Part shown: one piece after another, positions 20,065-25,045 of the stretch | Layout of the letters: each line of letters starts with the position of its first letter | Numbering within the stretch: position 1 is the first letter of the stretch | IMG/VR virus record: IMGVR_UViG_3300021404_000017 | Span: 1 to 51,308 of that record | Direction: 5' to 3' (one strand) | Source of the DNA: a virus | DNA length: 51,308 nt | Program-made: the position numbers and the translations under genes | Notes under the pieces: model-generated | Seen by the model: only the letters and a program-made list of their open reading frames with translations | Database searches by the model: none | Told to the model about the DNA's origin: nothing

Positions 20065-20331
20065 TCAGTCATCTCCGAGCGGATCTACCGGATTCCAGCC
20101 ATGCACAGCGGTCAACATCGGGGAGCCCTTCTGCCCAACCTCAATGCTCGACAAAGAAGCCACCACAGACAGCACGGCACCGGACAAGGCGAACCCGGAA
20201 ACAGCTTTCCAATCCAGATGCCACGCATCGACAGCGCTTCCACCGATAGCGGAGCCGCCGCAGATCGCCGCACCGCGCACCGCCAGCTCAGCAGTATTCC
20301 GCCAAAACTGAACGGAGAAAAGGGTGCTCAC
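20065..20331 (-). CDS. Holin, r1t-like, 88 aa
   Basis: It has FWRNTAELAVRGAAICGGSA, a second hydrophobic helix (WKAVSGFALSGAVLSVVASL) and the small C-terminal SPMLTAVHG. This matches the r1t-like holin family, whose two transmembrane helices open the membrane to endolysin. GTG 20331 overlaps the upstream stop. It sits directly after lysins A and B and one small gene, as expected. Confidence 0.82.
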   Translation of the reverse strand: MSTLFSVQFWRNTAELAVRGAAICGGSAIGGSAVDAWHLDWKAVSGFALSGAVLSVVASLSSIEVGQKGSPMLTAVHGWNPVDPLGDD

Positions 20332-20534: not shown

Positions 20535-21404
20535 TCAGATCGGGCCGAATGGTTCTGTCTGACTTCCCGCCAAGGCGACGAAGTTGTAGATCGGTGTCGG
20601 ATCGTAGGTGTAGTGGTCGGCATTCCCTGTCGCGGCGAGGAATTGGAAGCCGTTGATGATCGCGTCGAAGGTGTTGATCGGCGCGTCTAGGTCCATGAAC
20701 ACATCCCACGCCGCCAAAGGTGTCAGGTTTTGTACAGCGTTGAAGATGGTCTGTTCCACCGACCCAACCCCGTTCTGTGGCGCGTTCGCGTACAGCTCCG
20801 TAGCGCCAACATCCGGGTTGTTGGTGTTCACAAAGTCACCCCAAAAATGTGTGACCGGAGTAGACAGGCGGGGCTGGACCTGCTCGAGTGTCAGGTTCAC
20901 CGGCCCATCGCTATTGGTGCCCTGCGCGATACCGCCCGTCTGCGAACCATCCTTAACCCCTGGGATGGGCCATCCGGCGAATTCGTTACCGGACGCAAAT
21001 CCCTCCGGCCGTTGAGGATTCCCAAGCACAGCCACACACACGATACGAGACAGGATATCCATCCTGTTGAACTGATAGCACCACTGAACGAATTGCGCAA
21101 TCACCATCGCGCCCTGCGAATACCCGATAAGGACAAGGGAATTCTCGCCGTAGGTTTGCCCCGGCGTGATCTGGAAACCCGGATAAGTTTCCCCGGTCGT
21201 CAGATATATCAACGACTGCACACCCATCGTCACAGACGGCCCCATAGGGAAAGTCGCCGCAGGAAAATCCCCGACGGGTTGCCAAAAGTACCGATCCGGT
21301 TGATTGGCAGCTAGATTGGAGCCGATACCTGCCGGCTGCGGCGGGGCGGTATTCCACAGGTCGGAGCCTGTACCAGCGACGGTCAGAACAACATGACGGC
21401 TCAC
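20535..21404 (-). CDS. Lysin B, mycolylarabinogalactan esterase, 289 aa
   Basis: An alpha/beta hydrolase of cutinase type: catalytic Ser96 in GYSQG, likely Asp191 (FWGDFVN) and His265 (GNADHYTYDP). Lysin B cleaves the ester bond between mycolic acids and arabinogalactan, releasing the outer membrane at the last lysis step. Length and motif order fit the family. GTG 21404 is the start. This gene is strong evidence for a mycolic-acid host. Confidence 0.93.
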   Translation of the reverse strand: MSRHVVLTVAGTGSDLWNTAPPQPAGIGSNLAANQPDRYFWQPVGDFPAATFPMGPSVTMGVQSLIYLTTGETYPGFQITPGQTYGENSLVLIGYSQGAMVIAQFVQWCYQFNRMDILSRIVCVAVLGNPQRPEGFASGNEFAGWPIPGVKDGSQTGGIAQGTNSDGPVNLTLEQVQPRLSTPVTHFWGDFVNTNNPDVGATELYANAPQNGVGSVEQTIFNAVQNLTPLAAWDVFMDLDAPINTFDAIINGFQFLAATGNADHYTYDPTPIYNFVALAGSQTEPFGPI

Positions 21405-21412
21405 AAATGTGC

Positions 21413-22636
21413 CTAACTGTTGGGTTTCTCGGACGCGATGAACGTCAGAATGTTGGCGACGGAGTTCTCCTGCGCCGCAAGAGCATCCACAACCGTCAAG
21501 TTCTCCCCCGCGCTATTGGTGCCGAGCTGCGGCCAGCCTTGAAGGTTCGGGCCCCGCAGCTGGACTTGGATGTCCTGCACCACCGCCAAAATCTGTGCGA
21601 GTGTCGGATCTGGTTGGGTCACTGTGCCTCCTGTGTCGATGCCGCATGCCGTAGCGAACGTTTGGGGTGTGTAGCCGTCTGCGGAGTTCATGTCGCAAGT
21701 CCCGAACGGCGGACAGCCATCAGGCAGCCCAGACGCCGCGCCGTATCCGGTGCCGTCTGTGTACTGGTGCGCGAGTTTGATCAGGGTGGGGTCGTCGGGG
21801 TTGGCGCCGTACCCGGCCAAGATCCATTCCAGGTGGGCGGGTTTGAACTGCCACATCGTTTTCTCGTCACCCAGGTTGGCGTAGGCGATGACACGTTGTT
21901 CGTTGCCCAACCAGGCTGCGAGGGTTTGGTATTCGCCGTCCAGGTCAGTAGTTTGATCGACGTCGGGGTTGCCGCCGGATTCGAGGTCGATCATGGTGAC
22001 CATCTTCGGATGCGGTCCGCCCGCGGCATTGACCATCTGCATGTGGGTGTTGGAGCCGGTAGCACCGGGGCGCCAGTAGAAGTAGACGATGAAGCATTCC
22101 AATGTTCCTGCATTGCAGGCGTTGACGCACCACTGGTAGTTTTGGGTGAAGTTGTGGTCTTCATAGGTGCCGTCGTTGGAGCGGATCGACAACACCGGAT
22201 ACGGATACGAATCGTTAACAGCGGTCTGAAATTCGGACACGTCGGCGAAGAGTGTGTAGACGGGCTGTGTCACTGCTTCTCCTGTGAGGTATCGGCGTGC
22301 TGTGTTGTAGGGGCCGGCATCGTTGACCGGTACTTCTTCGATGGGCACCCCGTAGGTGGAGGCTTCGATCACATTCCCGCTACCCGAATACAGGGCCACA
22401 TGCGAAGCATCTGGGTAGTAGATGATCAGATCCCCAGGCTGCAGGTCGCTGTACGCTACCGGAACCCCACCCGCGGCTTGCGCCTGGGAGGTTCGTGGAA
22501 TCGCTATACCGATCTGCGCGTACGCCCACTGTGTGAGCCCCGAGCAGTCGAACACGGTGGGTCCTTCAGCACCCCACCCGTAGGAGTCGCCGATCTTCGA
22601 CCGCGCCACATCCACAACTTGCTCTTGTTGTGTCAC
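21413..22636 (-). CDS. Lysin A endolysin, NlpC/P60 plus GH25-like, 407 aa
   Basis: N-terminal NlpC/P60 peptidase domain (about 1-115) with catalytic Cys31 in VFDCSGLTQWAY and His79 in ASHVALYSGSG. It is followed by a GH25-like muramidase domain (LFADVSEFQ through MIDLESGG and AYANLG). The C-terminal tail has a proline-rich linker and helix and may bind the wall. GTG 22636 overlaps the preceding stop; the longer start 22648 is less likely. The enzyme cuts host peptidoglycan at two bond types. Confidence 0.9.
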   Translation of the reverse strand: MTQQEQVVDVARSKIGDSYGWGAEGPTVFDCSGLTQWAYAQIGIAIPRTSQAQAAGGVPVAYSDLQPGDLIIYYPDASHVALYSGSGNVIEASTYGVPIEEVPVNDAGPYNTARRYLTGEAVTQPVYTLFADVSEFQTAVNDSYPYPVLSIRSNDGTYEDHNFTQNYQWCVNACNAGTLECFIVYFYWRPGATGSNTHMQMVNAAGGPHPKMVTMIDLESGGNPDVDQTTDLDGEYQTLAAWLGNEQRVIAYANLGDEKTMWQFKPAHLEWILAGYGANPDDPTLIKLAHQYTDGTGYGAASGLPDGCPPFGTCDMNSADGYTPQTFATACGIDTGGTVTQPDPTLAQILAVVQDIQVQLRGPNLQGWPQLGTNSAGENLTVVDALAAQENSVANILTFIASEKPNS

Positions 22637-22791
22637 AACCGGTCCCACGGATTCCGCTGCCGAATCAACCTGACCGTCATCCCACCCGAGACGTGCGGGG
22701 CCGAGTGGTAGTGGCGTTTCATCTCCGCGAACAACACCGCCAACCAGGCTTTCGCCTCATCGCTTAACTCATCAAGCAGCGGATTCGGCAC
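22633..22791 (-). CDS. Small protein before lysin A, 52 aa
   Basis: MPNPLLDELSDEAKAWLAVL FAEMKRHYHS... is helical with a basic C-terminus (VRLIRQRNPWDRL). GTG 22791 overlaps the protease-like gene by 20 bp; the TGA overlaps lysin A's GTG (GTGA). Conserved placement suggests a regulator of lysis expression; unknown. Confidence 0.68.
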   Translation of the reverse strand: MPNPLLDELSDEAKAWLAVLFAEMKRHYHSAPHVSGGMTVRLIRQRNPWDRL

Positions 22792-24310
22792 TACGTTTCG
22801 CTGTTCCGCCGAGAGCTTCGATGTCGCCGCGTAATGCGTCTATGTCGATGTTGTGGTTGTCGACATCCTCTTGGGTGATGATGACCCACGCTTCTTCAAC
22901 GCATTCCGCCGTCCACCCCGTCGTGGCTGCTTGGTCAGCGCCCCATGTGACATAGCCGTCCAGGCTGTGACCGTCGGCTTTAACGAGGAGGACGCAGTGC
23001 CCGTCATTAGGGTCGGACCGCTGCCCGTCCGCGACGGTCCACGGCTGGTGTCCGGAGAACAGTTCGTCGGCGTCGTCGGTGAGGGACACCCCGCAATACA
23101 CGCCGGTGAACGCGGCTAGCGCGGCGTCGAGTTTAGTGCGGTCCGTGTGGTCGACCGGGGCGAACGCCACAATCTTCCCGACATGAAACCAATGCAGCAA
23201 AAGTTTGGCGATGTTCGCGCCCTGATCCACACCCCGGTCATACGTCAGGTATTCCTCAACCAACTGGTTTGAGGTTTCCCACGTTTCGACTTCCTGACCG
23301 CGGGCGGATTTCGCCATCCGATAATGCTGCCTACCCGCGAAAGTGCAGTTATGGGAGAGCATTCCCTCTGCAACGAAAGTCCGGGTGGATGTCTGAATCG
23401 CCGTAACCCACTGCTCTCCAACGTCCTTACGCTCCACGATTTGCACCGGATTGGCGATAACGCGCCGTAGGTGTTCGGGTTGAAACAGATCAAGTAGACG
23501 CTTCGGGCGCACGTGCCCTAGGAACTTGGCGGTTTCTCGCCGGCCGCCCAGAAGGACGAGCCGGTCGTAGCCCTTGGTCGACAGGCTGCTGTATGTCATA
23601 GTGCGGCGAGCCACGCGGTATCCGTGGTGGTTCAAGATTCGGGCTACTTCGGAAAGCATCCGGTTATCGCGCTGTGAGAAGATGACGGATTTCAGCGCGC
23701 CAGTGCTGGTGGAGCGAGATAGGCAACCTTCTCCGTCGAAGGCAGCTGCTAGATACCCGAGGTCATATGAGTCTTCGCTTTCCCAGGTTGGGAAGGCTTG
23801 GTAGAGGGCGCTGTCTGATCGCATGGCGTCAGTTCGTAGCCATGCCCCACCCGCTGACATGCCTCGGCTTCCGCGGTACCACTGATGGTCGAAAGAAGAA
23901 CGGATTATTGTTCCGTCTTCTAGCTCGAGGTCGTAGCAGGGCTTGCGTAGCGCCTTTACTGCTTCGACCCTTGAAGTTAGGAACCGCCGTCCCTGTCCCC
24001 TGTTGATCGGAGTTTCCTCAAACCCCACCAACTCGTCGCCCACTCTCAATGACGAGATCGGCACCCACCGAAGGTCTGCCGTCAGCACGCGGGTATCAGG
24101 GCCAAGGCAGTTCCCGACACCGTCGGGCTGCACAGTGCAGGTCGGGTCGGGTCCGTTGCCGAGCATCCCCCAGTCGGTGATCCCACCCGTGACGTCGACC
24201 GGATATTCCACTGGAGGCAATGGGGCGTATTCGTGTACGAACTTGAGGGCCAACCGCTTCGGGAGGGCTGGGAGACGTCCCCGTTTACCGGGGATGCGAG
24301 GCGGGGTCAT
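22772..24310 (-). CDS. Papain-like protease fold protein interrupted by an intein, 512 aa precursor
   Basis: Residues 1-67 and 322-512 form the mature protein (258 aa after splicing); residues 68-321 are an intein. The joined sequence has GVGN-CTFAGRQHYRM (nucleophile-like Cys), DGHCVLLVK (His) and GYVTWGADQA, the order and spacing of a papain/C39-like cysteine peptidase. The Cys is the +1 residue of splicing. The gene is between a small membrane protein and lysin A, so a role in lysis or host-envelope processing is possible. Peptidase identity is inferred from pattern. Confidence 0.8.
   Translation of the reverse strand: MTPPRIPGKRGRLPALPKRLALKFVHEYAPLPPVEYPVDVTGGITDWGMLGNGPDPTCTVQPDGVGNCLGPDTRVLTADLRWVPISSLRVGDELVGFEETPINRGQGRRFLTSRVEAVKALRKPCYDLELEDGTIIRSSFDHQWYRGSRGMSAGGAWLRTDAMRSDSALYQAFPTWESEDSYDLGYLAAAFDGEGCLSRSTSTGALKSVIFSQRDNRMLSEVARILNHHGYRVARRTMTYSSLSTKGYDRLVLLGGRRETAKFLGHVRPKRLLDLFQPEHLRRVIANPVQIVERKDVGEQWVTAIQTSTRTFVAEGMLSHNCTFAGRQHYRMAKSARGQEVETWETSNQLVEEYLTYDRGVDQGANIAKLLLHWFHVGKIVAFAPVDHTDRTKLDAALAAFTGVYCGVSLTDDADELFSGHQPWTVADGQRSDPNDGHCVLLVKADGHSLDGYVTWGADQAATTGWTAECVEEAWVIITQEDVDNHNIDIDALRGDIEALGGTAKRSAESAA
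23348..24109 (-). other. Intein with LAGLIDADG homing endonuclease domain, 254 aa
   Basis: Block A CLGPDTRVLTADLRWVPISS starts with Cys1. Block B is IIRSSFDHQWY with the His of the N-terminal splice site at intein residue 75. The endonuclease motif is DLGYLAAAFDGEGC (116-129), one LAGLIDADG copy, with later FLGHVRPKRLLDLF of the same fold. The C-terminus TFVAEGMLSHN ends with the canonical His-Asn, followed by +1 Cys. All residues needed for splicing are intact. Confidence 0.92.
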
Positions 24311-24447
24311 ATGAGTCTTTCGTCCTCTTCGTCCCAGTCAACGGTGGGGGCAATGAACGGGGCCACCAGGAACAGCACCAACTCGAGGACACCCACCAGG
24401 GCGAGCAGGATGATGCCCGCGTCGATGACATACCGGAGAACACTCAT
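24307..24447 (-). CDS. Small membrane protein, 46 aa
   Basis: MSVLRYVIDAGIILLALVGV LELVLFLVAPFIAP has one long transmembrane stretch and an acidic tail (DWDEEDERLI). Both ends overlap neighbours as ATGA. It could be a small holin-type protein or anchor for its neighbours; unknown. Confidence 0.75.
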   Translation of the reverse strand: MSVLRYVIDAGIILLALVGVLELVLFLVAPFIAPTVDWDEEDERLI

Positions 24448-24860
24448 CCGATCAGCCCTCTCACATACCGTTGCGCTTCAAAATCGCTGGAGGACAGCAG
24501 GTGCACTCCGTGCGCCCCTCGATGATGCTCCAAGCAAAGCCATGTCAGATTTGCCCCCGACTCCACCCACGCACCAACAGTGTTTGGGTCGGAGACGCCG
24601 GGGTAGTCGACCTCAAGCCACGCGAGGTCCACACCGTTTTGCAACGCGAATTCGATGTGGCTGTGGTGGAGTTCGAGTTGGCCTTTGCACTCGGAGAAAT
24701 CGTTGCGGTGCAGTCCGATCGCGCACTTCGCTGTCTTGCGGGTGCGGCGGCGGTAAGCGTTAAAGTCCTTGTAGTGGATATCGGTGCGGCGTTCTGGGTG
24801 CGCAGGGTAGTGAACCAGATAGGATTTCGTTTCCTTCTGGTCGTGCGCCGGGGTAGTCAT
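24444..24860 (-). CDS. HNH-like zinc nuclease domain protein, 138 aa
   Basis: The motif order CAIGLHRNDFSECKGQLELH HSHIEF, then NLTWLCLEHHRGAHGVH gives a CxnC, His pair and C..HH arrangement like an HNH/treble-clef nuclease, though the classical Asn is not obvious. MTTPAHDQKETKSYL at 24860 overlaps the previous stop. Similar proteins sit after the minor tail genes in other mycobacteriophages. Confidence 0.65.
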   Translation of the reverse strand: MTTPAHDQKETKSYLVHYPAHPERRTDIHYKDFNAYRRRTRKTAKCAIGLHRNDFSECKGQLELHHSHIEFALQNGVDLAWLEVDYPGVSDPNTVGAWVESGANLTWLCLEHHRGAHGVHLLSSSDFEAQRYVRGLIG

Positions 24861-25045
24861 GTCCCTGGGGTGTAGAGGTCGTCCCAATGGTCAACGTCGG
24901 CAGTGGTTTTCGTGACCGCACCACTACCCGTAGTAGCGACTAGCCATGCGTGTATGGCGAGGGCGCCGACTTCAGGAAACTCGGTGCGTATCGCCACAGC
25001 ACCCGTGGACGGGTCACGCTTTACATGACTTGTCTGATAGTCCAC
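24857..25045 (-). CDS. Small protein after minor tail genes, 62 aa
   Basis: MDYQTSHVKRDPSTGAVAIR ... is a short beta-rich protein with a C-terminal DVDHWDDLYTPGT. It follows the 547-aa minor tail gene without a gap, and related small proteins occupy the same place in other mycobacteriophages; perhaps a structural accessory. GTG 25045. Confidence 0.75.
   Translation of the reverse strand: MDYQTSHVKRDPSTGAVAIRTEFPEVGALAIHAWLVATTGSGAVTKTTADVDHWDDLYTPGT

Follow-up and report, generated by a model that had tools for sequence, protein, structure and literature searches.

An Intein Directly before the Presumed Catalytic Cysteine of a Papain-like Protein, Probably a Lysis-Cassette Enzyme of a Mycobacteriophage-like Siphovirus

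Introduction

Inteins inserted at the active sites of their host proteins are a known theme, mycobacteriophages included. Most of the described mycobacteriophage inteins are found in proteins of DNA packaging, in portals, and in proteins of nucleotide metabolism; in the covered part of a survey of 13 host groups, no peptidase or lysis protein is named as an intein host (PMC5050341). None of 224 lysin A proteins was found to contain an intein (PMC3314691). The terminase-like intein Pham3880-g of cluster C1 mycobacteriophages (ScottMcG gp245) is reported to splice in an MBP-intein-GFP reporter, although part of the precursor remained visible (Kelley et al. 2016, PMC5050341). Judged by cluster and gene description, Pham3880-g and the terminase intein of the phage EmmaElysia appear to represent one locus.

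Here, we describe an intein-bearing gene in a virus record of 51,308 bases, which was analysed in full and is referred to below as the window. The account as a whole, which we hold to be probable, is that of an intein directly before the nucleophilic Cys of a papain-like lysis-cassette enzyme in a mycobacteriophage-like siphovirus; its splicing, catalysis, substrate, and mobility are parts that we infer. As far as searched, within the open-licence literature, what is new is the host protein, a lysis-cassette cysteine hydrolase with an intein at its nucleophile, and the intein itself is of a known kind.

Precursor Gene and Insertion Point

The precursor is encoded by one reading frame that is open across its whole length and in which the candidate catalytic residues of the C-extein are intact. 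Its parts are as follows.

22772..24310, minus strand: precursor ORF, predicted papain-like protein interrupted by the intein (512 aa; reading frame)
24110..24310, minus strand: N-extein, residues 1-67, ending QPDGVGN (67 aa; junction seen in intein-free relatives)
23348..24109, minus strand: intein, Cys1 to Asn254, CLGPDT...GMLSHN (254 aa; full-length matches to phage inteins and NF038136)
22772..23347, minus strand: C-extein, starting CTFAGRQHYRM (191 aa plus stop)

The ORF and its length agree with the preliminary description of this DNA. The split that was proposed there, after GVGN with the Cys of CTFAGRQHYRM as the +1 residue, is borne out by the intein-free relatives, which close exactly at GDC or GNC; the intein length of 254 aa is matched by a tblastn alignment with the C1 terminase intein that spans residues 1-254, and the length of 258 aa given for the spliced protein is correct. 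In a structure model of the precursor the extein halves are confident and the intein is poor (mean pLDDT 63). The GC content of the intein (58%, against 59% for the virus) is uninformative on a foreign origin, and DNA similarity of the region to known phages is limited to a short lysin A stretch that is common with mycobacteriophages.

The spliced 258-aa protein matches phrog_19005 (E 2.4e-13, residues 61-245). It was aligned with 38 intein-free relatives from IMG/VR, GenBank phages, and bacterial genomes, and seven residues are invariant in 39 of the 39 proteins, namely Asn52, Cys68, Ala71, Tyr100, Asp108, Gly110, and His184 in spliced numbering. No intein is present at this position in the 38 aligned relatives, and one member in 39 thus carries one. 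Because the relatives close up at the invariant Cys, the intein directly precedes that residue, and because a Cys follows the junction in every one of the 39 sequences, the site cannot be put down to chance in a single protein. A conserved Cys at this place in intein-free homologues was the test that had been set in advance for the account, and it is found in all 38.

The residue at -1 is Asn in the window (24110-24112) and Asp in 36 of the 38 intein-free relatives; the Asn is possibly an adaptation to splicing, which is a guess. In the window protein, ten extra residues also separate the oxyanion Asn from the Cys (24125-24154), and a similar insertion occurs only in the intein-free relative L005. 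A search by way of lysin A and the tail protein found no intein-free allele more than 50% identical. The nearest virus, L063, has a tail protein 90% identical to that of the window, and its contig stops within the tail genes, before the lysis region; L064 provides a distant, syntenic intein-free allele. Relatives of the extein were found in no plasmids and in three of 199 genomes of the phylum of one bacterial match.

Fold and Candidate Catalytic Residues

The residues that would form the active site were assigned from the family alignment, from a model of the closest intein-free relative, L003, and from a comparison with papain.

23345..23347, minus strand: Cys+1, presumed catalytic Cys (spliced 68, precursor 322; 39/39; equals Cys59 of the L003 model)
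22997..22999, minus strand: presumed catalytic His (spliced 184, precursor 438; 39/39; papain His159 by weak profile comparison)
24155..24157, minus strand: Asn52, at the place of papain oxyanion Gln19 (39/39)
22940..22948, minus strand: Thr-Trp-Gly turn (spliced 201-203), at papain Ser176-Trp177-Gly178 (alignment, weak profile comparison)

The fold is read from the AlphaFold model of L003 (43-47% identical), not of the window protein. This model has a pLDDT of 94 and a pTM of 0.91; its helix 59-70 begins exactly at Cys59, and the strand bearing His166 begins at residue 165. Foldseek comparison with the PDB returned xylellain at the top (4.4e-7), followed by papain-family enzymes, many of them proenzymes, with TM-scores against the papain family of about 0.5-0.6, as for a related but diverged fold. 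Among viral models, the best matches are annotated Peptidase C1. A papain-like fold of the clan CA type is thus supported for the extein by the model of its relative. The structural outcome that had been set in advance as a refutation did not arise in this model.

At the level of sequence, a low-confidence comparison of family profiles, with a papain sequence identical to PDB 1khp, sets a Gly-His of the family at papain His159 and the Thr-Trp-Gly at Ser176-Trp177-Gly178. The equivalent of Asn52 lies six residues before the Cys in most relatives and 16 before it in the window. In the same weak alignment the position of papain Asn175 is occupied by Val, Ile, or Lys, followed by the almost invariant Thr-Trp-Gly, and the Cys-His-Asn triad is absent. 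At a threshold as loose as E 10, none of seven records matched Pfam Peptidase_C1 (PF00112), and a PDB sequence search with the family profile gave no match. Membership of C39 or of Pfam C1 by sequence was considered and rejected, as no Pfam C1 or C39 model matches. Of the papain/C39-like pattern that had been claimed from the letters, the papain C1-like part therefore stands, by fold (AlphaFold and Foldseek, L003) and by the conserved Cys and His, but the C39 part does not, and the triad Asn is not conserved. Papain-like families with a complete core but without the triad have been noted in a survey (PMC10318531), so a Cys-His dyad is not unusual; a dyad, perhaps with the addition of Thr, seems more likely here than the canonical triad.

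Gene Neighbourhood and Lysis

The genes around the precursor gene are listed below, in the order of transcription.

24444..24887, minus strand: free-standing HNH endonuclease-like gene, just upstream (phrog_8048 E 8.9e-6)
24307..24447, minus strand: small one-helix membrane protein, 46 aa (reading frame; TGA overlaps the precursor ATG as ATGA)
21413..22648, minus strand: lysin A, NlpC/P60 plus a second endolysin domain (PF00877 E 2.2e-20; phrog_26250 endolysin E 5e-21)
20535..21404, minus strand: lysin B-like, cutinase family (phrog_102 E 1.4e-30; Pfam Cutinase below cut-off)
20065..20331, minus strand: r1t-type holin (PF16945 E 2.2e-11)

The order in the window is tail genes, precursor gene, lysin A, lysin B, and r1t holin. 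The placement in the lysis region that was first proposed is upheld by the holin, lysin A, and lysin B beside the gene and by a relative that is fused to an endolysin domain. Around the intein-free relative of L064 the order is minor tail proteins, the relative, lysin A, and lysin B. In L033 (4899-5804) the family member precedes lysin A and lysin B and has a twin-arginine-like N-terminus, NRRNALKFLGLATALG, which suggests export without a holin. In the protein at L028:4977-6863, a natural fusion, an Ig-like domain links a phrog_19005 domain to an endolysin domain (phrog_3513 E 9.4e-18); this protein is the best functional clue for phrog_19005. Within two genes of 31 relatives the commonest PHROG matches are endolysin families, compared with single endolysin matches only among farther ORFs of the same loci that served as a control; this enrichment is a tendency and not a rule, and one protein may match several families. 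Some relatives have no adjoining lysis gene, and several lie beside portal, terminase, or other genes.

A lysis role is likely for the papain-like protein, judging from gene order, endolysin neighbours, and the L028 fusion. It is conceivable, though in our view unlikely, that the papain-like extein has another task, such as the processing of phage or host proteins by a protease of the cytosol. No signal peptide is evident in the window protein, whose third catalytic residue is unlike that of papain, and such a task would also suit the relatives that adjoin portal or terminase genes; against this, endolysin genes are the most frequent neighbours, one relative is joined to an endolysin domain, and the L033 relative combines its twin-arginine-like N-terminus with a position ahead of lysin A and B.

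Two further observations concern the surroundings of these genes. The 46-aa one-helix membrane protein at 24307-24447 is a possible holin-like partner. A GH114-family glycosidase gene (L003:3092-4267; PF03537 E 7.6e-74) lies two genes before the closest intein-free relative.

The Intein and its Relatives

The element is a class-1-like intein that carries a LAGLIDADG domain and belongs to the mycobacteriophage terminase/portal/Rv2578c type, with its identity and boundaries computed. Its main features are as follows.

24107..24109, minus strand: intein Cys1 codon, first splicing nucleophile (intein alignment)
23885..23887, minus strand: block B His75, SSFDH (invariant in the intein alignment)
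23519..23767, minus strand: LAGLIDADG_3 domain, intein residues 115-197, motif LAAAFDGEG (Pfam PF14528)
23348..23350, minus strand: C-terminal Asn254, after penultimate His253 (intein alignment)

The closest phage match is the terminase intein of cluster C1 mycobacteriophages (37% identity, 7e-36, residues 1-254, tblastn); portal inteins of Gordonia phages give a weaker full-length match (32-34%) and are among the 138 phage records that match at 1e-5. The best curated model is NCBIfam NF038136 rSAM_Rv_intein (E 2.2e-17 over residues 1-254), and the closest solved structures by sequence are mycobacterial replicative helicase inteins. A search of IMG/VR with the peptides of the intein itself gave no further copies, and a terminase-intein query there matched a single contig, the C1 terminase itself.

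Of the features of a class 1 intein, the element has a Cys at position 1, a C-terminal junction SHN/C in which His-Asn is followed by Cys, and exteins that in intein-free relatives join without a gap at the insertion point. Block B reads S72-x-x-H75 (S-F-D-H); the His is kept and Ser replaces Thr, a substitution that the Gordonia portal intein also has. For block F, inspection of the alignment by eye did not reveal the usual Asp and His, either here or in the relatives. The preliminary description had credited the intein with all splicing residues; this holds for Cys1, His75, His253, Asn254, and Cys+1, but not for the block-B Thr, which is Ser, or for the block-F pair. The LAGLIDADG domain that it had also reported is recovered by PF14528 (E 5e-5, 23.9 bits against a cut-off of 22.5), with one clear copy only of the motif. 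The +1 residue varies among related inteins, being Ser in the terminase and Thr and Cys in portals; the Cys+1 here is therefore a residue of the host protein.

A decayed or splicing-poor relic, with the protein lost or merely cleaved in this phage, is improbable, as the block-B Ser, the obscure block F, and the single clear LAGLIDADG motif that would fit it are deviations shared by the terminase and portal inteins, one of which is reported to splice (PMC5050341), and the open frame and intact C-extein catalytic residues also speak against it.

Proposed Mechanism and its Meaning

In the proposed mechanism, Cys1 of the intein would attack the Asn67-Cys1 bond, and the thiol of Cys+1, which would also be the catalytic Cys of the enzyme, would take over the N-extein. 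Cyclisation of Asn254 would then leave Asn67 joined to Cys68 and free a 258-aa enzyme with its active site restored. The likely activity of the spliced enzyme is cleavage of a peptide or amide bond of the cell envelope, in support of lysin A and B. The precursor should be inactive until it is spliced, since the intein would separate the Cys helix from the oxyanion loop right at the nucleophile.

The presence of the intein is explained most simply by a mobile (selfish) element at a conserved site that is intolerant of imprecise loss, and we prefer this to a regulatory reading. Splicing as a regulated on-switch, by which a lysis enzyme is held as a zymogen and spliced at or near lysis, for example by the action of redox or metal ions on the Cys thiols, seems to us very doubtful. 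The junction lies exactly at the nucleophile, from which an inactive precursor is expected, the splicing thiols and the catalytic thiol all belong to Cys, and conditional splicing is described for mycobacterial DnaB inteins (PMC6195587, PMC7360933). However, an intein in one of 39 family members means that no such switch is needed elsewhere, the best studied related intein spliced readily, though with some precursor left (PMC5050341), and no regulatory feature was found. We see equally little likelihood in a splicing-gated lysis zymogen whose intein is retained since (conditional) splicing times the delivery of the nucleophile, one thiol serving splicing and then catalysis.

From this analysis phrog_19005 gains a testable activity, that of a papain-like Cys-His hydrolase linked to lysis, together with candidate catalytic residues. 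The locus also offers a simple system for asking whether splicing gates an enzyme that is harmful to the host cell if active early.

Comparison with Known Systems

The C1 mycobacteriophage terminase intein (Pham3880-g type, EmmaElysia gp258) resembles the intein of the window in its match from Cys1 to Asn254, its LAGLIDADG-type insert, and its HN end, but it is 37% identical, resides in another host protein, and has Ser at +1 and Tyr at -1. The Gordonia portal intein (Lidong gp8) likewise matches over its full length at 32-34% and differs in its portal host and in the Thr at +1. The Rv2578c-type intein (NF038136) matches all 254 residues, and its host is a radical SAM protein; the window protein falls below the whole-protein cut-off of NF038136, as its different host would predict.

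The spliced extein belongs to phrog_19005, of function unknown, in which no other member was seen with an intein; one member, MW202816, is annotated 'cysteine protease and beta' and adjoins an amidase. With papain C1 enzymes (xylellain, cathepsins, papain) the family would share the fold, a Cys at a helix start, a His at a strand start, the Trp-Gly turn, and, in most members, a polar residue six before the Cys. It differs from them in that there is no sequence-profile match, the triad Asn is not conserved, the oxyanion Gln is replaced by Asn, and no propeptide was identified. The N5 (papain/C39-like) and N4 (RipA-like) domains of mycobacteriophage lysin A are also lysis cysteine peptidases (PMC3314691). 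N5 and N4 are, however, domains of lysin A, whereas the papain-like protein described here is encoded by a separate gene, and the lysin A next to it carries an NlpC/P60 domain of its own.
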